From Agmasoma carcini (nom. nud.) (taxonomy: Eukaryota; Microsporidia; Thelohaniidae), in the NCBI GenBank assembly GCA_029232285.1, contig JAOXFI010000010.1, positions 1-64,000 on the forward strand: DNA of 64,000 bases, in the 5' to 3' direction. The notes beneath the pieces are model-generated. The model was not told the DNA's origin. It saw only the letters and a list, made by a program, of their open reading frames with translations, and did no database searches. This document shows positions 5,692 through 38,420 of the stretch, piece by piece (position 1 is the first letter of the stretch; every line of letters begins with the position of its first letter). The position numbers were made by a program, and so were the translations under genes.

Positions 5692-6588
5692 ATGCTGCTT
5701 TTGAGATTAGCTATGACTGCAATGTCTATGGATCAATGTATGGAGTACATTGATGGGCCTGACTTCAATTTAGTATGTGTAGGATCAACGTACAGCTCGA
5801 GTTTTCTTGAAAATGCAAAAGAACTAGAATTAGACGACATAGTACAAATTCATTTAAATCATGAGTTTCCTAGCAAATATGGGGCACTAAGGTGGGTATA
5901 TGAAGGATATTTTTTAATATTCGAAAAAGTCTTTAAGGAAAAGTCGTACCCTGAACCTATCAACTTTTATTTTTTCTTTTACGAACGAATTAGCGATTCA
6001 AAAATAAAAATTCGAGGTAAGGTTAAGGTTCAGTCAGTTTATGCTTTGGATTTTAAAAGGATTGAAAGGGGAATGAAAACCTTCAAAAAGGATTGTTATG
6101 ACCAGGATTTTAAGAAATTTTCGTATTTCGTTGTTGCTGAATCAATTAACAAACAGAAAAACAAAATAATTGGTATAATTGATGTCAGGAAAGACAAAAA
6201 ACGTTTAGATGATGCGATGATGTCTGATTTGGAACATAAAAAGCAAAAGAAAAGGCAAAAACCTAAGCTACGTCGATCTTCTGTAGGTCCAGCTAGAATG
6301 CTAATTGGAGGTATTAAGTTTGATTCTATTGCTGAAGGAAGTGGAATAACCGAGTCAAAACAAGATACTATGCCACAAGGATTTGGATATGTTAGAAGAT
6401 CTGAATCATTATTATCTAGTAGAGAAGCTCCAGGAAATGTAGATTCTCAGAGTCTGGAAAAACAAAAGGAGTCTGGTAAAGAGTTAGCTTCTAAAAGTTC
6501 AGAAGGAACAAGTGGATGTTCTACCTTTGTTGTTGAAGAATTTGTATCAGGAGATGATGATTTGAATCTTAGCAAGGTTAATGATTGA
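5692..6588 (+). CDS. Group 1 paralogue, soluble variant with basic run; function unknown
   Basis: This 298-residue protein has no recognised function. Residues 1-16 are a methionine-rich hydrophobic leader starting M-L-L-L-R-L. Residues 36-48 carry the S-x-x-L-E-N-A-K-E-L-E-L block seen in the other paralogues. About residues 68-170 match the group core: F-x-x-I-F-E-K-V-F, then F-Y-F-F-F-Y-E-R, then S-K-I-K-I, and a later F-S-Y-F-V-V. Residues 182-195 are a dense Lys/Arg run (K-K-Q-K-K-R-Q-K-P-K-L-R-R) that could be a nuclear signal or an acidic-partner contact. The C-terminal ~90 residues are Ser/Glu-rich and end acidic. Unlike six of its sisters it has no C-terminal membrane helix. The start follows AACC and lies ~30 bases after TATAAAAAG. 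Whether it is secreted via the leader or cytosolic is not clear. Confidence 0.75.
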   Translation: MLLLRLAMTAMSMDQCMEYIDGPDFNLVCVGSTYSSSFLENAKELELDDIVQIHLNHEFPSKYGALRWVYEGYFLIFEKVFKEKSYPEPINFYFFFYERISDSKIKIRGKVKVQSVYALDFKRIERGMKTFKKDCYDQDFKKFSYFVVAESINKQKNKIIGIIDVRKDKKRLDDAMMSDLEHKKQKKRQKPKLRRSSVGPARMLIGGIKFDSIAEGSGITESKQDTMPQGFGYVRRSESLLSSREAPGNVDSQSLEKQKESGKELASKSSEGTSGCSTFVVEEFVSGDDDLNLSKVND

Positions 6589-6829
6589 ATTAATGGTTTT
6601 ATTTATTTTAAGAATTATATTGTTTGATATGAAAACCCTTTTATATATTCAAATAAACATTTACAACTTTTATTAATTTAAATACTTTAATATATATTTT
6701 TGAAATTTTGAATATGATGATATTGCAAGTTATAATATCATAAAGTTTTAATAAAAAAATAAATAAAGAAATTAAAAATTTTAGAATTGATAGATTATGG
6801 TTCGTAGAAAAAATTCTGAAAACATTGTG
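6589..6829. other. Spacer after the 5692 gene
   Basis: A+T-rich; nothing recognised. Confidence 0.4.
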
Positions 6830-7075
6830 ATAGCCTGAATAGGTACGACAAGGACTATTTCTTAAAATTTAAAAATACTTACATTATTTTATCCAAAATG
6901 GTATACGAATTAGAATAGGAGCAATGGTAACCCTCGAGTTGTTATGTTGACACAGAGTCAATAATATAGATGAACCATCCTTTATAAATTTTTATTTACC
7001 ATAAAGGTAATAAGTTAAATACTAAATATGAAATTTATAATTTTATAAAATAAAAGAAAATATCATTGATGCCAT
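6830..7075 (+). repeat. Dispersed repeat A, copy 1
   Basis: It shares the block GCAATGGTAAnCnTTCGAGT, then GTTATGTnGACCAC, with copies at 36310-36530 and 38440-38600. The alignment with the second copy extends over about 170 bases. No coding capacity is evident. It could be a solo LTR or a short non-autonomous element. Confidence 0.55.
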
Positions 7076-7269
7076 ATTATAAAACAAAGGAAGGAAATAT
7101 TTTTATTAACAACAAACAAAGACGATCTGAACATATCACATAAATAATAGATTCAGGGAGATTTTAGACCTTTGTTTGGTGCGGTGAAGAAACTAACTAT
7201 AGAAATAACGACATTGAGTTTTAACAGGCTACTAGTTGCAAGAGACTAAAGTAAGACTTGTGTGATACA

Positions 7270-7900
7270 GAAAATCTATTCACACTCTAAAACTATTTTA
7301 CAGTCGACAGATAAACAATTCTTCTTATTGATAAAGATTTTTACAACATAAAATAATGATTTATTAATTCTATTTGAGATAAGAGCTTTGAAAAAAGCAC
7401 GTGTGTGAAAAAACGATAATCCTACGATATTAGGGACATTAAATATTGGTGCTTCAAATCGACCATACACTACCGCGCTTTGGTTTGTAGAGGAGATTTA
7501 GGGTCAAAGCTTCGCAATAGAAATTGTTTGCTTCTCGAGGGTTTAAAGAACATAGCTCATTGAACCTCTGGATGCTTCCATCTTAAAACTGGCCACTCCC
7601 CTCTAAGAAATTTATTTATACTGGCTAGGTTGTCAACCCTAACCAGTTCTTCTGGATTGGTAAGATAGATATTAAAAATACTCCTATCCTTTTAATATGC
7701 GAAGATGTGTTGTTTACAGTTTAGACAAAGGGTATTGATGATATTTGAATCAAGACTTAACCTTTTTAGTTCATACATTCATCTTTTTGTACCGGTTTGG
7801 AGTTCTATAAGTTACAACATAAAATAAGATAAAACTGGCCAGTGTACGTAAAGTACTAATTCTAGTTACAATCACAAAATAAAGTAAGTTTCTTTTAAAT
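7270..7900 (-). repeat. Unclassified repeat with coding-like segment, inverted copy at 15215-15360
   Basis: On the reverse strand 7280-7480 closely matches + strand 15215-15360. Both carry GAAGCACCAA, GTAGGATTAT and ACACACGTGCTTTTTT in the same order. The reverse strand has a 64-codon open frame at 7276-7470 (Y-G-R-F-E-A-P-I-F-N-V-P). A second broken frame upstream contains F-L-R-G-E-W-P-V-L-R-W-K-H. This could be a relic of a retroelement polyprotein, but no family was recognised. Confidence 0.45.
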
Positions 7901-8585: not shown

Positions 8586-8589
8586 CTAT

Positions 8590-9140: not shown

Positions 9141-9545
9141 TTAGTATCAATTGTTTTTTTTTAAATTGCCAATTATTCAAAAATGTATTAAAGCTCAAAA
9201 CCCTTACCATACATTAACATATTTTTATAAAAATATATAATTATGTTATTAATGTTACATGAGTTGTAATCGAAGGATCATAATTTGATTTTATTCACCA
9301 TTACAACTGGTTAGAAAATTAAAAATCTTTATTATATTTTGTTTTAATTAGTCAATAAAAGGCTATAATGTAAATAGTTAAAAGTTTATGTATTATATAA
9401 CATTATTTTACATAAATTTTTATAAATTTTTAATTCTTTTTCTTGACCAATTGAATTTGATTTAATAGGAACATAAAATTTGATAAAAACCTAAAATTAT
9501 ATAAATTGGTATAAAAGTAATATTATTGTTAAAATATAATTATTT
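9141..9545. other. Spacer before the 9592 gene
   Basis: A+T-rich; nothing recognised apart from the promoter module listed next. Confidence 0.4.
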
Positions 9546-9591
9546 TGACATATTTGATAATTTTTAAGAAAAATCTTAAAAATTTATCCAT
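9546..9591 (+). promoter_or_regulatory. TGACA promoter module of the 9592 gene
   Basis: TGACATATTTGAT begins 46 bases before the ATG. The gene at 30882 has the identical TGACATATTTGAT at the identical distance, although the proteins are very diverged. Confidence 0.55.
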
Positions 9592-10164
9592 ATGAATTTT
9601 TCAATTTTAAATATAATTCATAGTTTAAATCTTCCTAAAGATGAGGACGTTTACTATAATTCGTCAATATTTGAGTGTGGAAGATTAATCAAAGATAATC
9701 CACTTATTTGCCACGAAAAGAAAATGATTTTAGGATATGAGAATCTTGTTTTAGATGGTAATACTGTAACAACAGATCTAATATTGACAATTTCAGATAA
9801 TTTAAGAAATATTGATATGAATACTTTATGTTTTAAAATAATACCTATTACTACTGTCTTTAATACAAAAATATATCAAGCAGAACTAACTTTTGATGAA
9901 TTAGAGAGAATTGATTCATCAACATTAAAAATTAATAAAATTAAGTTCGATGTCAACCATCAAAATGATGATTATGAATTTCAATTTATATTTTATGATA
10001 AAAATAATTTAAAATTAAAGTATATTGGTCTAGGCATTGTTAAATTTGTATACATTAGAAATGTTAATCCTAACAATAATGATAATTCAGGTTTTGACAT
10101 GATATATACTTCAATTTTTAATCATATGCATGATGATAGTCAAAATAATACAAGAGATGCTTAA
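9592..10164 (+). CDS. Group 1 paralogue, short diverged member; function unknown
   Basis: This 190-residue protein resembles no family I know. The N-terminus (M-N-F-S-I-L-N-I-I-H-S-L) is weakly hydrophobic. About residues 24-34 (Y-N-S-S-I-F-E-C-G-R-L) occupy the place of the S-x-L-x-N-A-x-x-L block in the sister genes. Residues ~58-160 follow the group core pattern in outline: alternating hydrophobic strands, then a final hydrophobic strand with F-Y-D-K-N-N-L-K-L-K corresponding to S-P-D-N-K-x-x-L-K. There is no C-terminal membrane helix, and the tail is polar. The link to group 1 rests on this weak pattern plus position, strand and the shared promoter, so it is an inference. The start is the first ATG, supported by the promoter spacing. 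Confidence 0.65.
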   Translation: MNFSILNIIHSLNLPKDEDVYYNSSIFECGRLIKDNPLICHEKKMILGYENLVLDGNTVTTDLILTISDNLRNIDMNTLCFKIIPITTVFNTKIYQAELTFDELERIDSSTLKINKIKFDVNHQNDDYEFQFIFYDKNNLKLKYIGLGIVKFVYIRNVNPNNNDNSGFDMIYTSIFNHMHDDSQNNTRDA

Positions 10165-12075: not shown

Positions 12076-13512
12076 CAGTACTCCATAAAAACCAAAAACC
12101 TCAAAAATTAGTTTAAAAGGTGTAAATTTATAAATAAAAAGATAATTTGAGCATAATTGTATAAATATATCTATAACATTTTTTATTTTTTAAATCGCGA
12201 ATTTTATATAAACTCTTTTGATAATTTTGATAAAATTTTTAGTTAAAAACCAATAAAAAAATCGGACACCAGGAAAAATATCATATAATTTTCCCTCCTT
12301 GTATAACTATAAATAAAAAATACAGAACAAATATTCTAATGGGTAAACATGTTTCTGAATTCGACAAAAGTCGAATTTTTCAGCTATTTTCTATGGGGTT
12401 TTCAATACGCAAAATTAGTGTAAAAACCGACTTAAAAAGATCTACAATACAAGAATGATACAGAAGATAAAATAAAAGGTATTAGTTGGTTGGAAGAAAA
12501 TAATTGATATCAGCAATATCAATTAAATTAAAAAACGAACAATAAAAAACTTTACTCTACATGCCGCAATATTAAAAAAATATGATTGAAGATAAGTCAA
12601 ATATAAGTATCTGTGATGAAATTGTGCCTCTTTTTAAAGAAAAATCATTTTAGATGTGTTTATTCTTCATCTAAGCTAAAATTATCAAATGTGCAAATCA
12701 TTAACAGATTTTGGTTTGCAAAAAATGTGGCTATTTAAAGGCAAAGACTACTTTAGCGATGCTATTTTTTTAACATTTATAATGACTCTAAGAGGCAAAA
12801 GGTGTGGGTTGAAAAAGAAAATCAACGCCTATAAATTAAACTGTCAAATTTGGTAAGATGAAAACATTTGTTTGGGGTTGTATGAGTAGAAATGGTGTTG
12901 GGAATTTGGTGTTTTTAGATGAAACCTTAAATGCACTATATTATACTCAAATATTAACCAATAATTTATATGAAAGTGCACGAAAATTCTAATTTTCAAA
13001 ATGTAAATTTAAACAAGATAATGATCCAAAGCATAAAAGTAAGATAACTTCAGAGTTTTTTGAATATATGAACATTGAGGTGTTAGAATGGCCTTTACAG
13101 AGCCAGATCTAAACCCAATAGAACATATATGGGCTTATTTAAAGCAAAAACTAAGAAATTTTGTTTTTGAAAACGAGGAGCATTTTATATCAAAAATTGG
13201 TGAAATGTGGGCTGATATTAATATTTTATACTGTAGAACACTAGTAGATTCTATGAGTGACATAATTAAAGAAGTTATAGTGGCAAAAAGTTGTCATACA
13301 TCATATTGAAAAAAAGTGTTTGGTTTTTTATTGGTTTTTAATTAAAAAAATTATCAAAATTATCAAAAGAGTTTATATAAAATTCGCGATTAAAAAATAA
13401 AAAATGTTATAGATATACTTATACAATTATGCTCAAATTATCTTTTTATTTATAAATTTACACCTTTTAAACAATTTTTTTGAGGTGTCCGGTTTTTTTT
13501 TTTGGAGTACTG
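12076..13512 (+). mobile_element. Tc1/mariner element, 1437 bp, ~200-base inverted repeats, TA target
   Basis: The element starts CAGTACTCC after TA at 12074-12075 and ends GGAGTACTG before TA at 13513-13514. The terminal ~200 bases are near-perfect inverted repeats of each other. A GGTGTCCGGTTTTTT-like motif lies near the outer end of the right repeat, and a related copy lies at the inner end of the left (about 12262-12272). This is an IR/DR layout as in some Tc1 elements. Both ends are complete but the transposase is broken. A partial second copy lies at 78-618. Confidence 0.9.
12339..13309 (+). pseudogene. Tc1/mariner transposase, frameshifted
   Basis: The N-terminus starts M-G-K-H-V-S-E-F-D-K-S-R and has helix-turn-helix character (I-F-Q-L-F-S-M-G-F-S-I-R-K-I), but a stop follows within ~40 codons. 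The last 73 codons (13088-13309) are open and contain E-P-D-L-N-P-I-E-H-I-W-A-Y-L-K, the third catalytic segment of the DDE domain. The upstream half of that motif (L-E-W-P) is in another frame. The middle catalytic aspartate region is scrambled. It cannot make an active transposase. Confidence 0.85.
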
Positions 13513-13921: not shown

Positions 13922-13963
13922 CTGTCATTAAAAATTATAAATATTGAAAAAAATATATTAACA
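13922..13963 (+). promoter_or_regulatory. TGTCA-TATAAATA promoter of the 13964 gene
   Basis: CTGTCA begins 42 bases before the ATG. TATAAATATTGAAAAAAA begins about 28 bases before it. The same order and spacing occurs before 16559 (43), 21014 (42) and 27832 (42). Confidence 0.7.
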
Positions 13964-14962
13964 ATGTTTTGTCTTTTAGACTTTATCCTATGTACAATTG
14001 AACTGTCAGAGGATGGGATATGTAATCTACCTGAGAATTTTGATCCGAATATTGAGGATTCGATAATAAATGAAGCTATTAACGTTGTTCTACCTTATAA
14101 AAAAATGAAACAGCCGAATAAGAATGAAACTGAAAATCAAACCCCAATTGAAAGACGTGAATCTTGTGAATTATTATGGAGTATCCCTCAAGAAGTATAC
14201 AATGATATTAAAAAAACCAAAACATTTTTTATTGAATTTAGGTTTTATAAGAACAAGATTAATTCTAAAAGATTAACAGAGTATTACACAAAGAAAGAGG
14301 TACAATTGACCAAAGATGAAGATCAATTAGACATTAAAATTGCCTTTAACAAGTTAAATCTAATATTTTATTCTTGTCTATGTACAATTATATATTCAGA
14401 TGATCAAAAATATCACTTGAAATGGCAATATGATCCTATGCCCCATGAAGTGATGGATCCGGATAGAAGTTGTATCTGTAACAATAGCAATGAAAATGTG
14501 AGATTATTATCTTCTAATCCATCAGATGTAGTTAATAAACTTAGTGAAAGCGATCTTGATCCTAATGTGCATGAAAATGTGAGATTATTATCTTCTAATC
14601 CAACAGATGTAGTTAATGAACTTAGTGAAAGCGATCTTGATCCTAATCTGCATGAAAATGATGGATCAGTTACTCACAATGACATTTCTAAAGGTGAAAT
14701 TAAAAAAGTGAGATTCAATTGTACTCATCAAAAAAATTATTCAGACTGGTCTTCAGAGCATAATCATAAAATATTAAGATTAAGAAAGATTGGTGTAAAT
14801 CATTCTGAAGACTACGCTCTTAATCAGATCGAAATACCTCCAACTGATAGTAATGTATTAGACTGTAATCAAATTTATTATGGTTTATTCAAATATATTA
14901 ACTTATCTGTTTTATGTATGATTTTTTTATTACTTGGAATTTACATTAAATTTTATAATTAA
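13964..14962 (+). CDS. Group 1 tail-anchored paralogue with 27-residue repeat; function unknown
   Basis: This 332-residue protein has no recognised function. Residues 1-14 form the conserved leader (M-F-C-L-L-D-F-I-L-C-T-I-E-L). Residues 15-40 are nearly identical to the sister genes (S-E-D-G-x-C-N-L-P-x-N-F-D-P-N-I). Residues 66-156 are the group core: W-S-I-P-Q-E-V, E-F-R-F-Y, Y-Y-T-K-K-E, N-L-x-x-Y-S-C-L, and H-L-K-W-Q-Y. Residues 177-203 and 204-230 are two near-identical 27-residue repeats. Residues ~311-330 are a hydrophobic helix at the extreme C-terminus, giving a tail-anchored topology with most of the protein on one side of a membrane. The leader has an Asp at position 6 and is short for a classical signal peptide. 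The first ATG is supported by the promoter spacing and by the aligned starts of its paralogues. Confidence 0.85.
   Translation: MFCLLDFILCTIELSEDGICNLPENFDPNIEDSIINEAINVVLPYKKMKQPNKNETENQTPIERRESCELLWSIPQEVYNDIKKTKTFFIEFRFYKNKINSKRLTEYYTKKEVQLTKDEDQLDIKIAFNKLNLIFYSCLCTIIYSDDQKYHLKWQYDPMPHEVMDPDRSCICNNSNENVRLLSSNPSDVVNKLSESDLDPNVHENVRLLSSNPTDVVNELSESDLDPNLHENDGSVTHNDISKGEIKKVRFNCTHQKNYSDWSSEHNHKILRLRKIGVNHSEDYALNQIEIPPTDSNVLDCNQIYYGLFKYINLSVLCMIFLLLGIYIKFYN
14492..14653 (+). repeat. In-frame 81-base tandem duplication inside the 13964 gene
   Basis: Two copies start at 14492 and 14573, each beginning GAAAATGTGAGATTATTATC. Each encodes 27 residues (E-N-V-R-L-L-S-S-N-P, then a Ser/Asp-rich half). 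Only a few base differences separate them, so the duplication is recent. The sister genes lack it. Confidence 0.95.
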
Positions 14963-16515: not shown

Positions 16516-16558
16516 CTGTCATTGAAAATTATAAATATTGAAAAAAATTATTTTTACC
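16516..16558 (+). promoter_or_regulatory. TGTCA-TATAAATA promoter of the 16559 gene
   Basis: CTGTCA begins 43 bases before the ATG, followed by TATAAATATTGAAAAAAA. It is nearly identical to the module before 13964. Confidence 0.7.
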
Positions 16559-24099: not shown

Positions 24100-24520
24100 T
24101 GTTGTTTTCCACGATCGTTGAAATTCAATTCAAACAAGATAAATTCATAGAGTTAGTTATCAGAATAATAATCTAAGAATTTTCGATATCACAGATACTC
24201 ATTAATAACTGCTTAATTATATATGAAATATGTTATTTATAGAAGTACTCTGACCTTATTACTTATTATTAAACGTGTCTGTAGATAAAAGATGGTCGTT
24301 TATTCTGATATATGTCATCAAATTAAAGAATATACTCTCGCCTTGGTTTGATTCATTGTACAGTTAATCATAGTGCTAAATGTTTGTTGATCCTTTAACC
24401 TCTACTTATACTTAGAATATTGTGTCATATCTAAGAAGAACTATTATACATCTAAAACCAAGGGATTATTTACAATATACTAGAATAGAAATAATGATAA
24501 AAGCCAATATCATTTGAGGT
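24100..24520 (+). pseudogene. Merlin transposase C-terminal fragment
   Basis: Read through frameshifts, 24360-24470 gives C-T-V-N-H-S-A-K, then F-V-D-P-L-T-S-T-Y-T-x-N-I-V-S-Y. This matches the Merlin V-N-H-S...F-V-D-P...H-T-x-x-I-E signature. The frame is broken between the two halves. Confidence 0.6.
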
Positions 24521-25089: not shown

Positions 25090-25480
25090 ATTAAATAGAA
25101 TTTTAGACGAAAACAGAAAATCTAAGATTGTGAAAATTAAAGAAACGATGTTCTTTAAAAGAAAGTATAATCATATAAGGCTTACAAACAGTGTTTGAAA
25201 TATTGCAGGGGTTGGATGAAATATGTAAAAATGTTTTTTTGTGCCAATTTAAGATAAGATACTCCTACTATAACTTATGTTATTTTTGAAAATGTTTTAA
25301 CATACTCAATTATTGTTACAGATAAATGAATAGCATATAGACCTACTCTTTGACTTTAGAAGATTACAGTAATAGGACCGTAAATAATTTCTTTGAATTT
25401 CTATAGTCTCTTGATAGAAGGTCACATACCAATACTATTGAGGTTTCTTTTTGCAGTCAAAAATATCTAATAGGAAAATG
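25090..25480 (+). pseudogene. Merlin transposase fragment
   Basis: The + strand gives I-I-V-T-D-K-x-I-A-Y-R-P-T-L near 25310, matching the catalytic (S/T)-D-x-W-x-A-Y segment. R-S-H-T-N-T-I-E-V-S-F follows near 25420. The order and spacing fit Merlin; stops interrupt it. Confidence 0.65.
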
Positions 25481-27362: not shown

Positions 27363-27550
27363 TATAAAAAGGATTATTTGATTTATTTTGAATGTTTGTT
27401 TATTATTTTGTAAAAAAACAGTGATTGGTCACTTGTTTTATCTATAAAAAGGATTATTTGATTTATTTTGAATATTTGTCTATTATTTTGTAAAAAAAAA
27501 ACAGTGATTGGTCACTTGTTTTATCTATAAAAAGGATTATTTCATTTATT
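27363..27550. repeat. Tandem repeat, ~80-83-base unit, about 2.3 copies
   Basis: Units start at 27363, 27443 and 27526 with TATAAAAAGGATTATTTGAT-like sequence. Each contains CAGTGATTGGTCACTTGTTT, whose TGATTGGTCA core is nearly palindromic. It lies ~290-470 bases upstream of the 27832 gene. Confidence 0.9.
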
Positions 27551-27789
27551 TACCCCTTATAAACATTTTAAATCAAAATCGGTATTTTTTCAATAATAAA
27601 ATTTAAATATTTTTAAAATGTCAAATTTAACTAAATATTATTTATAACAACTTAATACAAAGTATTTATTTATGGCTATGCTACTAATAAATATTATTTT
27701 TAATATAAATTATCATGTTTATATAAATTTATAGTTTTAGAGTACAATAAAAATCATTGGCTAAAATTGTTAAATTTAATTTTGATAAG

Positions 27790-27831
27790 CTGTCAATGAA
27801 AACTATAAATATCGAAAAAAAAAGTTTAACT
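27790..27831 (+). promoter_or_regulatory. TGTCA-TATAAATA promoter of the 27832 gene
   Basis: CTGTCA begins 42 bases before the ATG and TATAAATATCGAAAAAAA follows. The preceding TTTTGATAAG also matches the sister promoters. Confidence 0.7.
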
Positions 27832-28557
27832 ATGTTTTATCTATTAAAATTTATTCAATGCGCAATTGAAATAGACGAAAATGGTTTTCATAATTCGCTC
27901 TCGAACTTCGATCCAATTATCCAATATTCAACATATAATGAAGCAATTGAAACAAATTGTCTTTATGCAAATTTCAGTGAATCTGAAGAAGACAATAACT
28001 TCAGCACTTATACAAAAGCGAATCCAAATAAAGATGTTAAATATTGTAAAATATTATTTAGTATCCCTCAAAAAGTATTAGATAATATTAAAAATAATGA
28101 AAATATTTTGTTTGAATTTAGATTTTTTGAAAATAATAATAATTCAAATAAAGAAACCCAATTCTACATGAAGAATTATAAAAAATTGTCTAAAGATGAA
28201 AATATTGTTGAATTTGTCTTTAAGAATTTTAATCTAACAAGTTATTCTTGCTTATGTACAATTTCGGTACAAAATAATCAAAAATATAATTTAAAATTAC
28301 TATATGAGCTTGAAGATGAAGAAGATGATACAGTTAGATATACTTCTAACAATATAAATGATTGTTATTCAAGGTTAGAACAAGACATTGATAGTGATAG
28401 TTCTTCAGATTATTTTGCATACTATAAAAATCCAAACAGACAATATTCAAGTATTGATAATGAAGATAATAATAACGACGGTTTTTCTATTAAGCCATAT
28501 CTAAAATTTTTGATAATTATTATTATAGCTATTGTTTTTGAAGTTTATTTTCATTAA
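27832..28557 (+). CDS. Group 1 tail-anchored paralogue, 241 aa; function unknown
   Basis: Residues 1-14 are the leader (M-F-Y-L-L-K-F-I-Q-C-A-I-E-I). Residues 15-40 keep only part of the otherwise conserved block (N-F-D-P-I-I, Y-N-E-A-I), and the C-N-L-P motif is lost. Residues ~70-160 are the core (F-S-I-P-Q-K-V, F-E-F-R-F-F-E, F-V-F-K-x-F-N-L, Y-S-C-L-C-T-I). The linker to the membrane helix (~216-237) is much shorter than in the sisters. An in-frame TTG at 27757 and an ATG at 27796 lie within or before the conserved promoter. The ATG at 27832 is preferred because all close paralogues begin M-F-x-L-L there. Confidence 0.85.
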   Translation: MFYLLKFIQCAIEIDENGFHNSLSNFDPIIQYSTYNEAIETNCLYANFSESEEDNNFSTYTKANPNKDVKYCKILFSIPQKVLDNIKNNENILFEFRFFENNNNSNKETQFYMKNYKKLSKDENIVEFVFKNFNLTSYSCLCTISVQNNQKYNLKLLYELEDEEDDTVRYTSNNINDCYSRLEQDIDSDSSSDYFAYYKNPNRQYSSIDNEDNNNDGFSIKPYLKFLIIIIIAIVFEVYFH

Positions 28558-28572
28558 ATTTTTAATAAATAG

Positions 28573-28762
28573 ATTTTTTTCAAGTATAAAGGTGTGTTAT
28601 AGTAAAACATAATTGTGGTTATGTTTTTCAAGAAATAAAGAATTGAATAACAGTCTTAGTGAACTATTATAAATATTTTTTTTCAAGTATAAAGGTGTGT
28701 TATAGTAAATCATATTGTTCAAGAGTTAAGGAATTGAATAACAGTAATGGTGAACCTTTAAA
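28573..28762. repeat. Tandem duplication of ~100 bases just after the 27832 gene
   Basis: Both units begin TTTTTTTCAAGTATAAAGGT (at ~28573 and ~28674) and end with GAATTGAATAACAGT and GGTGAAC/AGTGAAC. The second unit is shorter by an internal deletion. Confidence 0.85.
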
Positions 28763-29288
28763 TATAATAAAATAATTGATTGATGTCGTATAATGAGGTG
28801 TATTGCTTTATTTAAAGATTTAAAATTTTATTTTTACCAATTTATAATATTTCATAAAAAGTATAATTTTTAATATAAAGAAAAAACAAATTATTTAATA
28901 TTTTCAATTTTTATATTATAAGATCAATAAATTCGCATCTTTTATATATAATCTTACTTTAAATACCAAATTCTCTTCATGAACTTAAATTTATTAAAAT
29001 TTCAATATACATTACAAATTATTATTTAAAATATTGATATTAACTGAATATTATTACAATATAAATACTAAGATAAGAATTTGAATAATAAAACCCTTTA
29101 AAAAACCTTTTTATTATATGAAAGGCCCATAAAACCACATCTAATCAAATAATTATGTTGTTATTATTGTGTTTGTCTATGTTTACGATTTCTATTTAAA
29201 AAATACGACATTTATTATTAAAAATTGTATAATCATATCAAGGTGTATGTTAAATTTTTATTATATTCAATATAAAAAATATTTTTTA
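28763..29288. other. Spacer, nothing recognised
   Basis: A+T-rich convergent intergenic region between the 27832 (+) and 29289 (-) genes. Confidence 0.4.
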
Positions 29289-29879
29289 TTAATAATAAAT
29301 CAACAAAGCCTGTATATTTGTCAATATATTGATAAGTGATTCAATTAGAGGTTCAATCTCAATATATTGTCTGTTTTCGATTATTGTCCTATCAATTAAT
29401 CCTTTAAGTTCAACAAGGTACTTGTTACGATATTCTGATATTTCTGAACTCTGAATTTCATAATTTAGTGCATTAAGTAATCTTCGTATTTTTATTGCTT
29501 CGGTATTAAAATTATAAATAATCAATTGATTTGCATATTTTGATATTTCAGTTGAATTTGCTAATAAATTAATAATATAATCACAACAATTCTCATAAGT
29601 ATTAAATTGTTTAACTTCAACATCATCATTGTTCAAATATTCTCTTAATATGTTTTTAAAACAACTATCTTCTTTATAAATATTGCACTTCTTTTCAAGG
29701 TCTGCACTTTTATTAAAATACTCTTCGTTCATAGTAGATTCATCAAAAGAGGCAGCACACAAGCTAATAACTATATAAATATAAAGCATAGGGTAAAAAT
29801 AAAAAATACAAATATTATGATATATTAATATGCATAGTTGAAAAGATGCAAACATTTCTTTATTTATAATGTAAAACAT
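29289..29879 (-). CDS. Group 2 secreted helical protein; function unknown
   Basis: The 196-residue product begins with a hydrophobic region. After an internal Met at residue 31 comes L-Y-I-Y-I-V-I-S-L-C-A-A, which looks like a signal peptide with a small-residue cleavage site. The remainder is polar and helical. D-E-S-T-M-N-E-E-Y-F aligns with D-E-V-V-I-N-E-E-L-F in the 35224 product. Five cysteines suggest an extracytoplasmic fold. The upstream start (29879) has CTGTCA 32 bases before it. The internal ATG at 29789 follows TTTTTACCCT and gives an N-terminus as short as the paralogues', so it is a real alternative. No enzymatic motif is visible. Secretion is an inference. Confidence 0.7.
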   Translation of the reverse strand: MFYIINKEMFASFQLCILIYHNICIFYFYPMLYIYIVISLCAASFDESTMNEEYFNKSADLEKKCNIYKEDSCFKNILREYLNNDDVEVKQFNTYENCCDYIINLLANSTEISKYANQLIIYNFNTEAIKIRRLLNALNYEIQSSEISEYRNKYLVELKGLIDRTIIENRQYIEIEPLIESLINILTNIQALLIYY

Positions 29880-29911
29880 AAGAATATTAATTTTTTCTTA
29901 TATTATGACAG
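29880..29911 (-). promoter_or_regulatory. CTGTCAT element upstream of the 29289 gene
   Basis: On the reverse strand CTGTCATAATATAAG begins 32 bases before the longer start codon. It is the group 1 motif with about ten bases fewer spacing. Confidence 0.4.
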
Positions 29912-30835
29912 ATAGATACATTTTATAATAAAATTTATCATATTAAGAGGGTTCAAATATATTTATGTAGATTTTAATTAAAGAATTGAATTAGTTATTA
30001 TATTTATTATATTTAAATCTTCATATATTATAAAATTTTATTTTTATAAAAATATTTATTATTCCTTTAATATTCAACATATATATAACAATATTGTACC
30101 TTTTGAATATTTGTTCTTAAAAAAGAAATATTAATAATATTTATAACTTCTAAAGATTTTTAATTAATTAAAACTATAATATAAGCATATAATACTTTTT
30201 TTTGAATATAAATTGTTGTAAGAAGGTTCAAAGTGTTTATTTATCTTATTTGTCTGTAAGGGTTAAACTTCTTAAATAGTTTCAAACCTGTCTAAGATAT
30301 TTTAATTGATTACAATATAATATCAAATCTCCATCAAACACAGACTACAACAAAAGCTATTTTTTTTGTTGTATCAGAATAACATATCAAATAATCAATA
30401 TAATATATTTTCATTGTCTCAATTGTATTTAAGTAATTTTGAGACCTTAACTCATATGTTAAATGGATTTAAAAAAGATGTTTTCAACCGTTTTTATCTA
30501 AGATCAAATATTCAAACAGCAATTAAGTCACATAAATATTAAAAAAACATTTATTTGTTGATATGAAGGTTTGTATGTTGATATAAAATTGTATTTTCAT
30601 TTAGTAATTTGTAAAAATGATACCATCCTAAAACTAACTAATAAATTATTTAAAATATGTGATCGATGTTCATCATATCATATTCAAATAGATTCTCTCT
30701 TAAGCTTATTTTAAAATCGATATATCAATCAATACATCCAATACTTAAATATTGATTTTTTTTTAAATTTTATATTTTTAAAGATTTAAGACTAATGACA
30801 TGTTAAACTTATATATTATTATACTAATTTATTAT
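29912..30835. other. Spacer with repeat C (30215-30330) and a shared 30-base block
   Basis: AAGAAGGTTCAAAGTGTTTA near 30222 recurs near 44410 (+), and in reverse near 36255-36290 with its flank (repeat C). The stretch ~30325-30355 (ATATCAAATCTCCATCAAAC) recurs in reverse near 59265-59295. The rest is unremarkable. Confidence 0.5.
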
Positions 30836-30881
30836 TGACATATTTGATTTTCGTATAAATTTTTTTAAAAAAATTTTTTTT
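30836..30881 (+). promoter_or_regulatory. TGACA promoter module of the 30882 gene
   Basis: TGACATATTTGAT begins 46 bases before the ATG, with GTATAAAT following. The motif and distance are the same as upstream of the 9592 gene. Confidence 0.55.
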
Positions 30882-31385
30882 ATGATTTTATTTGGAATAT
30901 TAGTATGTATGCCATTACAAAATAATAATATTATGCATGCTATAAATGGACAGAAAGTTAATTATTCTCTATTAAATAATGCAGTCTCTAAAGATATTGG
31001 AATTGAAAAATACAAACCTGAATGTTATGAACCTTCATGTAAAAAAAATCATTTAATGGAAAAAGGTCCAAAAATTTATATTTTTAATTTCTTTTTAAAA
31101 GATCATGAACTTTTAAATTCTTTAGAAATTAATGTAACCTTAACTTTGGGGTTTTATTCTATATCAAATAATGAAATTATAATTGAAAATATAATTGAAA
31201 AGGAAATAAATATAAAACAGATCAATGAATGTCATATTGAATGTGATGAAAATTTATTATGTTTAAATATTTATATGATTTTATCTGAAAATAATAAAAT
31301 TATTTATTTTTGCAAAAATGAAATAATACATAATGATGATAAATTAAATACCAAAAATATATCCGAAACAGAAATTTCAAATTAA
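30882..31385 (+). CDS. Group 1 paralogue, short secreted-like member; function unknown
   Basis: This 167-residue protein begins M-I-L-F-G-I-L-V-C-M-P-L. The block Y-S-L-L-N-N-A-V near residue 29 corresponds to S-T-L-N-E-A-I of the close group. Two Cys follow in C-Y-E-P-S-C. About residues 62-150 follow the core pattern loosely (F-N-F-F-L-K, L-T-L-G-F-Y-S, L-S-E-N-N-K-I-I-Y). The last 17 residues are polar and there is no membrane helix. The protein could be the secreted counterpart of the tail-anchored sisters. Homology to group 1 is supported by order and pattern, not by strong identity. The promoter is shared with 9592. Confidence 0.65.
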   Translation: MILFGILVCMPLQNNNIMHAINGQKVNYSLLNNAVSKDIGIEKYKPECYEPSCKKNHLMEKGPKIYIFNFFLKDHELLNSLEINVTLTLGFYSISNNEIIIENIIEKEINIKQINECHIECDENLLCLNIYMILSENNKIIYFCKNEIIHNDDKLNTKNISETEISN

Positions 31386-31899
31386 AAATCAATAAAATTT
31401 ATAATTTTAAATATTTTAGATCTGATATGGGGCAAGACCTATAAATGGTGATAATCAAGTATCAATTGGATTATAATAAGTTGAACCATATAAATATAGA
31501 AGTTTCTTTTATTATAAATAGGCAAATCAAAAGATATAATTTGATTTTATCTGTAGCAACTACATTCTAGGGTATATCTCTATAAAGTTTTGTCAAGACA
31601 TGATAAAATATATTGATAAAGGTCTTTTTTTTGACATGTGCTGAAAAAATATTAAATAATTAAAATATTCTTTTGAGTGCAGATAATTTATAACAGTATA
31701 TAAGGGTTATGTGACATTGTGAATTTATAAAATATTTAATAATTAATGTTTTTCCAAGAAAAATCAGGATGCCTATTCTGTAATAAAACAATAGTTCTAA
31801 AACAAGATAATAAAAATTATACTTAATGCTTTTCAATTAGAAATAATTCTATTTTTGATTTTTTTAGTGTGAAATAAAAATTAGATTGATGATTCTTAT
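31386..31899. other. Spacer, nothing recognised
   Basis: A+T-rich; no repeat recognised with confidence. Confidence 0.4.
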
Positions 31900-32420
31900 A
31901 AGATTCTGGTAAACAAGAGAAGATGCAAAAATACCGATATTAGTGTTTCTAGTATTACTGATATTTTATCAAGAACTTTAAAAGTATATTTGAATTCTGT
32001 CATGCACATATTGCATATACTCTTTTACCAATTATATACACAGTATGTGCTAAAATTCAATAATCAATTTTGATTTATAAAAATCTTACTCAAGGATATA
32101 TCCTAAACTCGGTTTATTCTACAAAACAATCAATCATAGTTGAAATTTTGTCAATCCTGATAATTTATTTAATACTCAAAATATTGAGTCTAATTAGGTC
32201 AAAGTCAAGAAACGAGTAAACAAGAGGAAAGGATTGTAATCTGCTAAAGTATATGTTTTTTAGGAGTAAATTGATGGAAGACAATGTTCTTCGAGATGAA
32301 TTTAAACAAATGTTCGATATTTTGAAAATTTTTATTTTTTTCTGAGGAAAATTTGGTATTGGTTTATCTTTTTTACTTATTTTAAAACAAAATTTGTATG
32401 CTGTAGACACAATCTTAAAA
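31900..32420 (+). pseudogene. Merlin-type fragment related to 965-1960
   Basis: It parallels 1445-1940: GATATTTTATCAAGA, CTCTTTTACCAATTATATAC, then N-T-Q-N-I-E-S-N at ~32172. A stop takes the place of the conserved Trp, and K-V-K-K-R-V follows. The ends are not defined. Confidence 0.6.
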
Positions 32421-32531
32421 TATTAGAATAGCTTTTCGTATGTATCCTAGGCAATTTAAATCTTAGAATTTTATTATATCATCAATTCCAAAAATCAAGA
32501 TATTATTTTATTTTCGATTTCTTATATTATA

Positions 32532-33819
32532 CAATGCTTTGCAAAAAAGTAGCACCCCAAAAAATTAAAATCTTATGCTAGATAAAACTAGATAGAAAAT
32601 ATATACAATTTAATAACTTTTTAAATACATATATATTCTTGTGTTTTTCAGTATTTAATTATGAATTCCAAATATAATATTTAGTGTGAACATGTTTGAA
32701 AAAAAAGTATCACCTTGAAATAAATTAATTAACACGTCTCCTTTCAGCTCTATAAATAACCAAAGCTTTTTTTCGAAAGCTTAAAGTAAAATGCTTCATC
32801 ATTTATGATCCATATTTAAAGATTTTATCTTTTAATTTTCGCTTAATATATGCTTGATAGGGTTTAGATTAAGCGATTGTAGTAGCTATTTTTATAAATT
32901 TTAATTTTTAGAATTAATTATTGTTTGAACTGATTTTTATTGTGACAAGGTGCATTGTCTTGCTAAAAAATCTGAAATGCCCATCATCAGGCAGATTCTT
33001 TGAGATTTAAAGAAAGAAGTTGTTTATATGCAACAGCGTCAATAGTTTAATCAATAAACACAAGTATATTTACTCTTTTAGATGATATGCAGCCCCATAC
33101 CATTTCTGATCTAAACACCATGGTATACTGATGGTTAAATATACTTTGTATTTACCTTTTCTAGTTCTTAATCGCACCAAACAAATAATTATCTGGCTGA
33201 TAAAGATTAAATCAACATTTATCATAAAAAATAAATGATTTAAGCTCATCTCTCAAAAATTCATATTATAATTTTTATATAAAAATGTTCTTCTTACTTA
33301 ATAATGGCTTAATAACAGCATTAAATGTGTTGATACTTTGTTTATTTATAGCCCTTGATATAATTTGAAAAAAATACATTAATATCGTATTTCTTTCACA
33401 AGTTTTTTTATATTTCTGATAAAGTGATAAATATATTTTTATCAATACACTTTATAAAAAAATCATTGTTGAAGAATTGAGCTTCTTATGTCGTCTAGAT
33501 CACGTTATTTGATTAATTGATATATTTTAAAGCGATAGAATTTTGGGCTAAACCATTTATTAAATAACTAATAACATTTATTTTTGCTCTTCTAAAATAT
33601 GTTTTGACATGGGTTATTCTTTAAATATTATTTTAGGGTATAACTTTTTTTTGCAAACATGTTCACACTAAATATTATATTTAGAATTCATAATAAAATA
33701 TTAAAAAACGCAAGAATATATATGTATTTATAGAGTTTATTAATTTATATTTTTCTATCTAGTTTTATCTGGAACAAGGTTTTCATTTTTTGGGTTGCTA
33801 CTTTTTTTGCAAAACAGTG
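32532..33819 (-). mobile_element. Tc1-type element, 1288 bp, ~190-base inverted repeats
   Basis: The left end is CAATGCTTTGCAAAAAA after TA (32530-32531). The right end is TTTTTTTGCAAAACAGTG before TA (33820-33821). Each arm carries two copies of the GTAGCACCC-type motif ~165 bases apart (an IR/DR layout). The transposase lies on the reverse strand. It is the same family as 56387-57828 but ~150 bases shorter. Confidence 0.85.
32755..33610 (-). pseudogene. Tc1 transposase, decayed
   Basis: The reverse strand starts at ~33610 with M-S-K-H-I-L-E-E. It includes the motif Q-Q/R-D-N-A-P-C-H near 32945-32965 and matches the 56621-57605 copy in reverse throughout, including the region just before the stop. 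Frameshifts and deletions interrupt it. It is inactive. Confidence 0.75.
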
Positions 33820-33821
33820 TA

Positions 33822-35223
33822 TATAGCTTTGTTTTATCAATCTCATGTTATTATTCAGGGTGAGATAATTTCATTAAGAATCGGCTAGATATAACTTATA
33901 AAAAAAATCAAATTTTATAAATTTTTAAATGTTATTCGTTAATTAAAAAAATCTAACAAGGTTGAAAATTGATCAATCATGTGATAACACTATTATATAA
34001 AAAATAAACTCTGATTTATTGATTTTAATGCGTAGTTAGAAATAATCAAGAAATTAATATTGTATATTGTAAATTATTTCTTCTGACATAAACTTACTCG
34101 TGTATAATTCATTTCTTACTTCTTTTGTAGTCATTTGTAAACAATCACTTGTAAGTATAACATACTGGCTCTCAATTATTTTGCTATAAACTTTTCTGTT
34201 ATCAGTTCAAACAAATTTAAAGAACAATTAACCGACTTATTATTAAAAATATTTTCTTTAATAATGATATATTAACTAGTCTATAATCACTCATTACATA
34301 ATAATTAAAAATAATTCTTGTATTATTGACCCTACGTGTTTTATTCCATCTCTCAACAGTTCTTAAGAGCAGTTTACACTAATTCTTTCAAATGCGACCA
34401 ATATCTATTGCTGATCAGTAATCCGATATTGTTATTCTACCTTTTTTCTAAAAGAGTTTAATCAATCTCTACCGTATTAAAATCATAAATTAAATCGACA
34501 GACACTATACTGATTATTTATTACAGTATTTGTAACAATAGCAACTGTCTATAAACAATCAAAATCCTAAGAATATGGAGCATACATTAAGGCTATTGAT
34601 AAAATATGTTAAAAATTCGTAAAATTTCAACTGTTATTTTTTTTTAAAAATTGACTTTCTAATACTAATTTTTGCAAAACTTGCAGTAATATCTGAAACG
34701 AAATCCTCTGCTTCTATTAACATAAATATGTAAAGTTTTATTTGAAATTAAGGCATCTATTTTATCAAGTAATATACTTGATAAAAACTGTTTCAATGTA
34801 TTATTACAAAGTAAATACCCTCATAAATGCTTCGATTTGATATTCATTTTACATTGGACAATATTATGTATTTAAATTCTTTTTTTTGCTGTAGATACAA
34901 AATAATACAGAGTTTAAATATAAATTGAACAATGATTAGTTATTTCATTTAAAGATATATTAAAATCATCTTTAAAACAATATTTATCAATTTTAAAGTA
35001 TTTTTATAGTTTTGTAATCGATAGTTAGACACCTGAAGCTTAATTTATTGAAACTTCTATTATATTTTATAAACTTCAAGACAAATTGCAAGTATGACAA
35101 TAAATTGTCTTCTATTGCTGATTTAAACATTATTAAGTCTTCTTCGTCATTCAATAACTAAATAATTGAATCAAAATAGTAATTAAAAGAAAAATAACTT
35201 AAAAAATAAAATAAAATTATTTA
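33822..35223. other. Spacer with a weak reverse-strand coding remnant
   Basis: On the reverse strand around 34300-34400 a short piece reads T-V-E-R-W-N-K-T-R-R-V, but stops surround it and no family is clear. Nothing else was recognised. Confidence 0.3.
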
Positions 35224-35772
35224 TCAATACAAATTATTGAAATAATAAAAAGCCAAAAAATCAACATTCAATATCATTTGAACAACAAATTCATAAGTTT
35301 TAACATCATTACAAGCTAAAATAAATTGATTCAACTTTTCCAATATATCAAATTTAGCTTTATCAATATTTCTTTTACAATTAATAGTATTTTGGAAATC
35401 ATTATAAACCATTTCAAAGATATCATTTTTGTTGTAAAATCTTCTAATAGTTTTTATTCCTTGACATAATTCTTTATATGCTTTGTCTATATTAAAAATA
35501 TAAATTTCAAATGATTGGTACAAAATAAATAATTCATGATTATTGGTGAATTTCCTTTCAGTGTTTATATATTTTATAATTTTTTTATATTCTCTAGAGA
35601 ATTGAGTAATAAATTGATCTAATAATATTTCTCTTCTTAATAGATTATCACTGAATAGTTCTTCATTAATAACAACCTCATCTAATTCTGAATCTCTATT
35701 TATAATAATTCTAACAAATGGACTTGATTGTATATAAATAAGTAAGTACATAATTAATTCCATATAAGCCAT
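35224..35772 (-). CDS. Group 2 secreted helical protein; function unknown
   Basis: The 182-residue product starts M-A-Y-M-E-L-I-M-Y-L-L-I-Y-I-Q-S-S, a plausible signal peptide. It aligns along its length with the 43163 product: E-V-V-I-N-E-E-L-F against E-V-V-I-D-K-N-K-F, then R-R-E-I-L-L-D-Q-F. Later the two share N-D-x-Q-N-x-I-x-C-x-x-x-x-x-x-A/I, the N-Q-F-I-L-A-C or N-H-Y-L-S-I-C segment, and the K-T-x-x-x-x-V stretch. It is predicted largely helical with two conserved cysteines. Unlike its relatives it lacks the TGTCA/TGACA element: a (GAGATATA)n microsatellite sits directly behind its TATA-like sequence. The function is unknown; export is inferred from the N-terminus. Confidence 0.75.
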   Translation of the reverse strand: MAYMELIMYLLIYIQSSPFVRIIINRDSELDEVVINEELFSDNLLRREILLDQFITQFSREYKKIIKYINTERKFTNNHELFILYQSFEIYIFNIDKAYKELCQGIKTIRRFYNKNDIFEMVYNDFQNTINCKRNIDKAKFDILEKLNQFILACNDVKTYEFVVQMILNVDFLAFYYFNNLY

Positions 35773-35801
35773 GGTATTTTTTTGAAAAAAATTATAATAT
35801 T

Positions 35802-36014
35802 TTCATATAAAGAGATAGAGAGAGATAGAGAGATAGAGAGATATAATGATATAGAGATATAGTGATATAGAGAGATAGAGAGATAGAGAGATATAGAGAT
35901 ATAGAGATATAGAGATATAGAGATATAGAGATATAGAGATATAGAGATATAGAGATATAGAGATATAAAGATATAGAGATATAGAGATATAAAGATATAA
36001 AGATATAGAGATAA
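35802..36014. repeat. Microsatellite, (GAGATATA)n and (GAGA/GATA)n
   Basis: The array is about 210 bases of GATA/GAGATATA units. It is very regular at ~35890-36012 and more mixed at 35802-35890. It begins ~30 bases upstream of the 35224 gene's start, with only the TATA-like region between them. The long reverse-strand open frame across it is a by-product of the repeat. Confidence 0.95.
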
Positions 36015-36119
36015 GGCTTTTAATAGGAACCTTTTTATTATCAATTCATTTCAAATTTTAATATATCAATATTATTTTTTTTACATTTAAATTCTATATT
36101 AACTGTTGAGTCTGCATTG

Positions 36120-36560
36120 GGATTGCAGGGAGATATCACAATGATATTTCAAGATAACATTGATCCATTAATTCAAATATCTTAGACAGTCAGATACTAT
36201 TTAAAGGATTTACCTTTAGGCACAACGGTCACTGAGCAGACAGACAAGATAAATAAACACTTTGAATCTAGTTACAACATTAATATTTCTTATATTAAAT
36301 CGTATTAACCTGATAAGTCACCACAAAGATTATTTCTTCGAATATAAAAATTATACTAAAATTTTACCTAAATGGGTTTACAAATAATAATGAGCGCAAT
36401 GGTAAACCTTCGAGTGGTTATGTGGACCACTGAGATAATAAGATGAATAAAATACCCTTTAAAAACTTTTACTTACACTACAGATAGGTTCCGCCTGCGG
36501 ATTACCTCAAAATCTTTATTGTATACAATCTATTTTTAATAAAAAATTATATCTTTTATA
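36120..36560. repeat. Repeat C (reverse) joined to repeat A copy 2
   Basis: 36150-36300 matches the reverse of 30215-30330 (AGATAAATAAACACTTTGAA). 36310-36530 matches repeat A (GCAATGGTAAACCTTCGAGT, then GGTTATGTGGACCAC). The junction suggests that repeats A and C may be parts of one element. Confidence 0.5.
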
Positions 36561-36862
36561 TAATACTTGTCTAAGACAATATTACAATTTTAAGTAAAAA
36601 AATATTTTAGTTATAGCACAATTATGTTGTACTTATGATATATTAAAATGATTTTAGTCTATTTTTCTCCTTATTTGAGCTCAGATTGATACATTATGTT
36701 AAATTTATTAATATTTATTGGTATAAAATTTTCTTCATATCAAAATATTAAAGACAGGTATTGAAATATTTTGAATTTATAGAAAATTTCATTTATAAAC
36801 CAATTTATTTAGTTATAATTTATTTTCAAAAAAATATTTTTAAAATTATAAAAAATATACCC

Positions 36863-37627
36863 ATGCAAGAAAATATTGAAGAAATTGGATATGATGAATT
36901 AGCTCTATTTGAATTTCCTACTATTGATCAATTATTAGATAGCGCTTTTTTAAATAATGCAAGAGATTTAGATGTTGAAATTGGTAAGTTTTTTGAAAAT
37001 ACAAAATATGTCGGTTTTTACTTTATTTTTAAAATACCTGATGATATATTTTATAATATTCAAAATTTAGGTGGTTTTAAATATAAAATATGCTTTTATA
37101 GATATACAGACGAAAATACTATAAAAATTATTTATAAAGACTTTACAGAGGTAGATTATTCTAATATAACAAATAGATATAGAGAAATAATATATAACAT
37201 TATATCATTGGAGTCTTTTCCTTGTTTTATTATAATTTTATCTCCAGATTGTGAAGATAAAGTTTTATATTTATTAAAAAATGAAAAAAATAAAAAATTA
37301 TTAATTGAAAATAAAGATGATAGGAAATGGCTGGAATATTTTGAACAACCAAACTTAAAAGATTTAAATATTGATGAAGAAAGATTAAATAAGAAAAGTT
37401 TTGCAGATACGCACACTTATTATGATATTGAAACAAAAAATAATTCTTATGATGAACTTTTTGATCATTATGAAAAAATTATGAATTTAAAGTATGATAA
37501 AATGGATTTATTAAATAAGGAGATTGAAAAAAAGGTCAGGAATTGTAAGATATGTGTTATTGCTTTGTCACTGCCTATTATATGTACTTTTATATGTACT
37601 TTAACATGTTCTATTATGTATAAATAA
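36863..37627 (+). CDS. Group 1 tail-anchored paralogue with helical stalk; function unknown
   Basis: The 254-residue product begins M-Q-E-N-I-E-E-I-G. The S-A-F-L-N-N-A-R-D-L-D-V block near residue 31-42 marks it as a relative of 37785 and 5692. The core (~60-155) reads F-I-F-K-I-P-D-D-I-F, F-K-Y-K-I-C-F-Y, and L-S-P-D-x-E-D-K-V-L-Y-L. After it comes a charged helical stalk (D-H-Y-E-K-I-M-N-L-K-Y-D-K-M) and a Cys-rich membrane helix at ~225-251. An in-frame TTG 34 codons upstream would add a hydrophobic N-terminus. I prefer the ATG because it follows TATAAAAAATATACCC and matches the 37785 product's start. The SNARE-like layout (stalk plus tail anchor) is only a resemblance of topology. Confidence 0.75.
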   Translation: MQENIEEIGYDELALFEFPTIDQLLDSAFLNNARDLDVEIGKFFENTKYVGFYFIFKIPDDIFYNIQNLGGFKYKICFYRYTDENTIKIIYKDFTEVDYSNITNRYREIIYNIISLESFPCFIIILSPDCEDKVLYLLKNEKNKKLLIENKDDRKWLEYFEQPNLKDLNIDEERLNKKSFADTHTYYDIETKNNSYDELFDHYEKIMNLKYDKMDLLNKEIEKKVRNCKICVIALSLPIICTFICTLTCSIMYK

Positions 37628-37784
37628 AATAAAATCATTATTTTATACCTTTTACTGTTGTCTTATAACTAAATATGCTATAATATAAGTTGTAATACTA
37701 AAATACTAAAATATTAAACTATATAAAATATTATTATTTTATTTTTTTTCCTTTGATTCAAAATTTCAAAATATTTTTTTAGGC

Positions 37785-38420
37785 ATGTCAAAAATAAATT
37801 ACGAAGAATTGAAAAATGATTCAATATTGGATGCTTCTTTATTAGACAATGCTAGACCACTAGAAGTTAAACACTCAGAGGATTTATTTCAAAGTAATAC
37901 CGTATTATGCTCAGAACATAACAAACTAGCTCATGATAATATCAATTTTATATTGACATTTGTACTTCCACAAAATATATTTAAAAAATTAAGAAAATAT
38001 GAAAGCCACGAATTTAAAGTTTGCTTTTATGAAGAAATACAAAAATCTAAAATTAAGATTATTACTCAAAGTATATATGATAGTCATATTAATGACAGTG
38101 AATCTGTTTTAATAAGGTGTAAAACATCTTTTAGTATACCTTATTATTCATTTTATAACAGAATTCCATTTTTTATTGTATTCCCATCACCAGATTCAAA
38201 TAATAAAATTTTATTTCTTGGACTAAATAAATATAGTTCTTCAAAAAAATTGGATAAACAAGCTTATACATTTCGAAAAGAAAAATATTATAAAGAAAAG
38301 GAGAAACTTGAAGATTCTTATGAGATTTATAAGTCATTGATAAAGAAAATGAGTATATTTATAGTGGCTTTAATAATTATTTGTGTGTCTTATATGATAA
38401 GCCTAAAATATAATTTATAA
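37785..38420 (+). CDS. Group 1 tail-anchored paralogue, tandem partner of 36863; function unknown
   Basis: The 211-residue product starts M-S-K-I-N-Y-E-E-L-K. D-A-S-L-L-D-N-A-R-P-L-E-V at ~17-29 matches S-A-F-L-N-N-A-R-D-L-D-V in its neighbour. The core (~48-150) has F-V-L-P-Q-N-I-F, F-K-V-C-F-Y-E-E, S-K-I-K-I and F-P-S-P-D-S-N-N-K-I-L-F. A Lys/Glu-rich helical stalk (~165-185) precedes the tail anchor (I-F-I-V-A-L-I-I-I-C-V). It lies 157 bases after the preceding gene on the same strand, so the two are a tandem duplicate pair that has since diverged strongly. Neither has the TGTCA element. Confidence 0.75.
   Translation: MSKINYEELKNDSILDASLLDNARPLEVKHSEDLFQSNTVLCSEHNKLAHDNINFILTFVLPQNIFKKLRKYESHEFKVCFYEEIQKSKIKIITQSIYDSHINDSESVLIRCKTSFSIPYYSFYNRIPFFIVFPSPDSNNKILFLGLNKYSSSKKLDKQAYTFRKEKYYKEKEKLEDSYEIYKSLIKKMSIFIVALIIICVSYMISLKYNL

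Follow-up and report, generated by a model that had tools for sequence, protein, structure and literature searches.

Genomic setting and candidate genes

We analyzed a 64,000-base stretch from Agmasoma carcini (nom. nud.), namely bases 1–64,000 (the window) of contig JAOXFI010000010.1 (C13, 107,953 bases) in assembly GCA_029232285.1 (4.26 Mb, 69 contigs). The subject of this study is a set of nine genes in this window that the initial annotation, made from the sequence alone, had assigned to one deeply diverged family. All nine were present as intact open reading frames (ORFs) on the + strand, and our comparisons support the common descent of seven of them. Genes are named by their lower coordinate, and the four most similar ones are termed the close four.

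13964–14962 (+): close-four member; core at about residues 1–160, spacer with two 27-residue repeats, C-terminal helix at about residues 312–328
16559–17542 (+): close-four member; lead sequence of structure model 1
21014–21967 (+): close-four member
27832–28557 (+): close-four member with a short spacer; a second in-frame ATG lies 36 bases upstream, and protein homology begins at 27832
36863–37627 (+): member, sister of 37785; C-terminal helix present, N-terminal hydrophobic stretch absent; ATG preceded by ACCC
37785–38420 (+): member, sister of 36863; C-terminal helix present, N-terminal hydrophobic stretch absent; lead sequence of structure model 2
5692–6588 (+): most distant supported member; no C-terminal helix; G+C 0.34, the highest of the 15 genes compared
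30882–31385 (+): claimed member, marginal in shuffle tests
9592–10164 (+): claimed member, membership unsupported in shuffle tests

The window contained 16 ATG-initiated ORFs of at least 120 residues, of which 15 were accepted as genes; 62850–63299 (−), a low-complexity repeat, was excluded, and for ORF 27796 the start at 27832 was used instead. Neighbor controls were ORFs of at least 100 residues past 64 kb (16 up to 104 kb, and four in the right end of C13), with shorter ones such as 89819 and 90227 excluded. The window had a G+C content of 22.8% and was gene-poor: its 15 accepted genes covered 10,359 of 64,000 bases, compared to 15,045 bases covered by 16 ORFs (≥100 residues) in the next 40,000. 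Past 65 kb, C13 carried ordinary genes, including those for trehalose-phosphate synthase, myosin, SRP54, a homeodomain protein, and eL32 (translations judged by eye). The eL32 sequence indicates that the genome is microsporidian, in agreement with the initial annotation, because its top PDB chains were 7qep_O2 and 6rm3_LEE, from structures that we take to be microsporidian ribosomes, and its best named relatives in the protein database were from Nucleospora cyclopteri and a Nematocida.

CCC- or GGG-like signals before the ATG are a mark of microsporidian gene starts, as described in PMC2803860. CC or GG was found within ten bases 5′ of the ATG in 10 of the 15 region genes and 11 of the 16 neighbors, versus 250 of 1,084 other + strand ATGs in the window, and was missing before 13964, 21014, 27832, 30882, and 29289. 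The start codons of 36863 and 37785 are supported by this signal, because ACCC and AGGC, respectively, precede their ATGs.

Relatedness of the genes

The similarity had been described at the outset as clear among four members, and this was borne out by mutual BLASTP E values of 1e-25 to 4e-52 within the close four, whose kinship is, on these alignments, beyond doubt. By the same measure (E ~1e-10), 36863 and 37785 are sisters. They were joined by 5692 in a hidden Markov model (HMM) search (E 8.7e-7) and in a comparison with the profile of the pair, where none of 1000 shuffles scored as well.

The two groups were bridged by an HMM match to 37785 (E 6.9e-5), BLASTP from 21014 to 36863 (E 7e-4 and 5e-4, and 0.002 in a further run), and a profile-profile alignment with hhalign (E 0.0012, probability about 20%). 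Among the 369 window ORFs, the top non-self match of the close-four profile, a check proposed in the initial annotation, was 37785; the top non-self matches of the three-member profile were 21014, 16559, and 13964 (E 0.04–0.07). With either profile, hhalign found no other contig ORF of at least 70 residues at 10% probability. Together, these comparisons suggest a link of moderate strength between the close four and 36863/37785/5692.

As for the remaining two genes, 30882 was matched by 18 of 1000 shuffles, and by 12 of 2000 with a seven-member HMM, and 9592 by 72 of 1000 and 271 of 2000, respectively. Both genes outscored 21 of 23 other contig ORFs, and two of the 23 outscored both; neither was among the best 14 matches listed for any of the five profiles. 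Because they fall below two other ORFs and are matched by shuffles, we count seven members, with 30882 marginal and 9592 unsupported. The proposal of nine genes with one shared core is supported for seven.

Divergence and probable local duplication

Among the six pairs of the close four, identity was 41–53% in the core versus 20–32% in the remainder. Codon position 3 differed more often than positions 1 and 2 in five of the six pairs and tied with position 1 in the sixth, a pattern that fits constraint at the protein level. The spacers of the close four were 55–145 residues long with more D+E than K+R in all four, and 13964 carried an 81-base tandem duplication (96% matches). About 43 bases 5′ of the close-four genes were conserved too. 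The close four are consecutive with no accepted gene intervening, and 36863 and 37785 are adjacent; this gene order fits local duplication.

Single-protein genome searches with 5692, 9592, 13964, 21014, 30882, 36863, and 37785, all of the nine except 16559 and 27832, found nothing outside C13, and those with 9592 and 30882 found only the query itself. Such searches are less sensitive than a profile, and that with 21014 also missed the known distant members, so that distant copies may exist elsewhere.

Membrane helices and N termini

Six of the nine genes end in a membrane helix and three do not, as initially annotated. Among the seven supported members, 5692 is the one without it, and in each of the other six the strongest hydrophobic stretch ends at most eight residues from the C terminus. 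The close four and 5692 begin with a short hydrophobic stretch, broken in all five by D, K, or R, which could be a brief signal peptide; in the 16559 model, residues 7–13 were drawn as a strand. Hydrophobic first residues (positions 2–13, mean >0) were found in 13 of the 15 region genes versus 7 of the 16 neighbors (Mann-Whitney p 0.0007), which hints at entry of the close four and 5692 into the endoplasmic reticulum (ER).

The first 15 residues (LLDLIKCTEDISD) of another window gene, 49546–50172 (−), resembled the close-four N terminus, and the remainder of its protein had no similarity. This likeness may come from a leader common to them or from the exchange of a 5′ end.

Predicted fold of the domain

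AlphaFold models were made separately for the core of 16559 (with the alignment of the close four) and the core of 37785 (with 36863 and 5692). Both had the element order H-E-E-H-E-E-E-E-E (H, helix; E, strand): H32–37, E44–46, E63–69, H72–77, E83–91, E100–110, E121–127, E135–141, and E147–152 in 16559, and H17–22, E28–36, E52–59, H63–70, E76–86, E89–99, E108–113, E129–134, and E142–148 in 37785. The conserved blocks, compared by eye, sat on equivalent elements of both models. The structural matches of both were immunoglobulin (Ig)/fibronectin type III (FN3)-like sandwiches, GH2 sandwich domains, and UNC119, and the IL-17RB chain 7wg3_K topped the lists of both, in VIA-align for one and Foldseek for the other. 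The best Z scores for the two models were 6.9 (root-mean-square deviation (rmsd) 4.8, 140 aligned) and 5.6 (rmsd 4.4, 116 aligned; UNC119). A viral structure library searched with the 16559 model gave nothing under E 0.001. From these models, we predict an Ig/FN3-like beta-sandwich. According to the initial annotation, one family would have to be given up if the close four and 5692/36863/37785 had no fold in common; instead, the two models agreed in element order, at low confidence.

Searches for relatives

Pfam gave no family over the cut-off for any of the nine proteins; the best match had E 0.011 and 16 bits, where 27.3 was required. No match was found in a database of 5.8 billion proteins with 21014 and seven members as queries, where the eL32 control returned 31 matches, two with microsporidian names. 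PDB sequences searched with both core alignments returned a single hit, a dynein at E 1, which we took as chance. Neither the family nor a microsporidian precedent for an Ig-like sandwich as a surface module was found in the open-licence PMC literature searched.

An undescribed, lineage-specific family of membrane type, as suggested initially, is still the best reading of the absence of Pfam matches over the cut-off and of protein relatives, the C-terminal helices, and the eL32 relatives; in size, our comparisons support seven genes rather than nine, and secretion is at most a conjecture. A large microsporidian gene family is defined as at least ten members in one genome in PMC5423893; here seven supported members were found, nine at most, and single-protein searches of the genome added none outside C13.

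An upstream TGACA/TGTCA element

TGACA or TGTCA was found between −65 and −25 of 9 of the 15 region genes, eight times at −46 to −41 and once at −31, compared to 1 of 23 controls, at −52 (the 16 plus four ORFs on C13, and three tubulins).

13923–13927 (+): TGTCA at −41 of 13964
16517–16521 (+): TGTCA at −42 of 16559
20973–20977 (+): TGTCA at −41 of 21014
27791–27795 (+): TGTCA at −41 of 27832
43738–43742 (−): TGACA at −43 of gene 43163–43699 (−)
50209–50213 (−): TGACA at −41 of gene 49546–50172 (−)
29906–29910 (−): TGTCA at −31 of gene 29289–29879 (−)
9545–9558 (+): TTGACATATTTGAT at −47 of 9592
30835–30848 (+): TTGACATATTTGAT at −47 of 30882

The 14-mer TTGACATATTTGAT was identical before 9592 and 30882, its only two copies in the contig. 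With the close four counted once and the others singly, 6 of 12 had the element versus none of the first 16 controls (Fisher p 0.0025). Because the motif was first spotted by eye, a blind scan of all 5-mers was run in windows of eight start positions, with 16559 representing the close four. TGACA was the top 5-mer of the region, in 5 of 12 genes; of 400 random intergenic sets, one had a best 5-mer that did as well.

Two of the genes with the element belong to two-member families: 43163 with 35224–35772 (−) (BLASTP E 4e-16), and 49546 with 44518–45165 (+) (E 2e-18). In each case one protein search found no other copy in the genome.

Because it crosses family lines (the close four, 43163, and 49546), the sequence is better read as a putative cis-element than as something simply inherited. 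It is tentatively possible, and in our view unlikely, that the first 60 kb of the contig form a co-regulated island of lineage-specific membrane and secreted genes. In such an island, TGACA/TGTCA, mostly at −46 to −41 and nearly absent from ordinary genes of the contig, would be the control element common to the close four, 43163, and 49546, which represent at least three families without kinship, and to 9592, 30882, and 29289. A single transcription factor could then turn all of them on or off, and the seven family genes would encode an Ig-like sandwich taken up as a surface module under diversification. Two observations complicate this picture. The element was missing from 5692, 36863, 37785, 35224, 44518, and 58673, and so from three members of the family of seven and from one gene in each two-member family, and its orientation varied between genes. 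If our reading is right, the element might help to spot other lineage-specific genes from their sequence.

A probable membrane-anchored binding module and its alternatives

We consider it fairly probable that the seven genes are a lineage-specific, membrane-anchored family, locally duplicated, whose domain is likely a binding module on a parasite membrane. Local duplication within a single stretch, poor in genes and rich in transposons, would have produced the family. Each protein would have one N-terminal domain of ~150 residues on a scaffold of helix (S-x-L-x-N-A), strand, helix, strand (F-x-F-Y), and four strands, followed in the close four by a fast-changing acidic Ser/Asn-rich spacer and, in six of the seven (not 5692), by a membrane helix near the C terminus. 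The scaffold would be kept as the surface and spacer diverge, and exposure to the host would be expected by analogy with microsporidian families that have C-terminal helices. Several results weigh against this reading. No N-terminal hydrophobic stretch was found in 36863 and 37785, because of which their domain would, by the ordinary rule, face the cytosol. Model confidence was low, with a predicted local distance difference test (pLDDT) score of 69.2 and a predicted template modeling (pTM) score of 0.70 for the 16559 core, and 61.5 and 0.59 for that of 37785; the best Foldseek E values were 0.017 and 0.0095, with no significant match. When whole groups were left out, 9, 24, and 319 of 1000 shuffles were as good as 36863, 5692, and 37785, respectively, and in the reverse direction 2, 2, 56, and 297 were as good as 16559, 21014, 13964, and 27832.

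The placement of 36863 and 37785, whose start codons are supported, would suit tail-anchored adaptors on the parasite's own membranes, with a cytosolic sandwich that recruits partners as VAP/MSP proteins do and makes no host contact. The domain architecture, the position of the six helices near the C-terminal end, the interruption of the close four's N-terminal stretch by D or K, and the modeled strand at residues 7–13 of 16559 all favor such adaptors. We nevertheless regard them as unlikely, as no MSP or other Pfam match exceeded the cut-off, quick divergence and lack of relatives would be unusual for a conserved adaptor, and the hydrophobic first residues in the region hint at ER entry for the close four and 5692. 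We give rather little credence to a split in which the close four and 36863/37785/5692 belong to two or three families without common descent and resemble each other only as small beta-sandwiches. The left-out groups, in which four of the seven genes (5692, 13964, 27832, and 37785) were matched by 24–319 of 1000 shuffles, the hhalign probability, and the low model confidence are what such families would produce, but the two profiles picked each other's members first, BLASTP connected 21014 to 36863, and no other contig ORF reached the hhalign threshold. Least probable of all, we think, is a single family of all nine genes: judged by eye, the hydrophobic blocks of 9592 and 30882 follow a similar order, the two genes share the identical 14-mer and score above most other contig ORFs, and 30882 exceeded nearly all shuffles with the seven-member HMM, yet two ORFs scored above both, the listed profile matches did not include them, and each found only itself in the genome. 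For the preferred binding-module reading, host contact is what we chiefly infer, because published families with C-terminal membrane helices were found to be host-exposed (PMC5423893).

Private, fast-evolving families are a main difference among microsporidian species and prime candidates for host interaction, yet for few of them has a fold been predicted or the control worked out. If the binding-module reading is true, birth by duplication, spacer growth (the 81-base repeat in 13964), and promoter sharing could be traced in one locus.

Other features of the region

The window also contained transposon-like sequences and repeats:

12095–13490: remnant of a mariner-like transposon, carrying long inverted repeats; its DDE_3 match stays under the cut-off; at least 38 genome places above 700 bits, self included (40 of 95 candidates scored)
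48264–48509: IS1595-type transposase-like fragment, below the Pfam cut-off
51007–51336: Sleeping-Beauty/Tc1-type fragment, below the Pfam cut-off
35821–36013: AGAGATAT microsatellite of ~24 units, just upstream of 35224 (−)
60156–60666: 100-base tandem repeat, about five units (90% matches)

A subtelomeric position of the cluster was first assumed, since the window is the contig start, and was dropped because a telomere-like repeat lies at the opposite end. The last ~136 bases of C13, in the right-end region L029, were (TTAG)n with two interruptions; TTAG is the telomeric repeat reported for Glugoides intestinalis in PMC12449221. The window-side end carried a transposon fragment at C13:76–598. 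The exact pattern (TTAGG)4 had its sole site at C53:2–71, the start of contig C53; the search for TTAG repeats covered C13. The assembly holds two telomere-like repeats, (TTAG)n at the right end of C13 and (TTAGG)n at the start of C53.

Comparison with known systems

VAP-type proteins have an N-terminal Ig-like sandwich (the MSP domain), a spacer, and a C-terminal anchor. The likeness here lies in the N-terminal beta-sandwich, which is predicted, the spacer, and the helix in six of seven members; the difference is that Pfam listed no MSP match for any of the nine proteins, even at E values as high as 1. The predicted strand arrangement resembles that of Ig-like and FN3 domains and similar sandwiches (IL-17RB 7wg3, GH2), the top structural matches of both models, none of them significant.

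Among microsporidian families, private ones with signal peptides or membrane helices are common, according to PMC5423893 and PMC10393165. InterB/DUF1609 (PMC10393165) is likewise a microsporidian multigene family, but none of the nine proteins had a DUF1609 row in Pfam at E up to 1. Large families are typically genus- or species-specific with host-exposed members, and each of the four large Nematocida parisii families has at least one such member, as described in PMC5423893. In that paper, the genes of large Nematocida families are often neighbors, which is read there as local duplication, and membrane-type families are described as not enriched at chromosome ends. The closest parallels by description are NemLGF3 and NemLGF4 of N. 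parisii (PMC5423893), which are lineage-specific paralogues with C-terminal membrane helices, as the genes described here appear to be in the main; the family described here differs in that seven members were found. This kind of family is already known; the family itself appears to be new. It is small, its fold is tentative, and the upstream element that some of its members share with other genes was unexpected.

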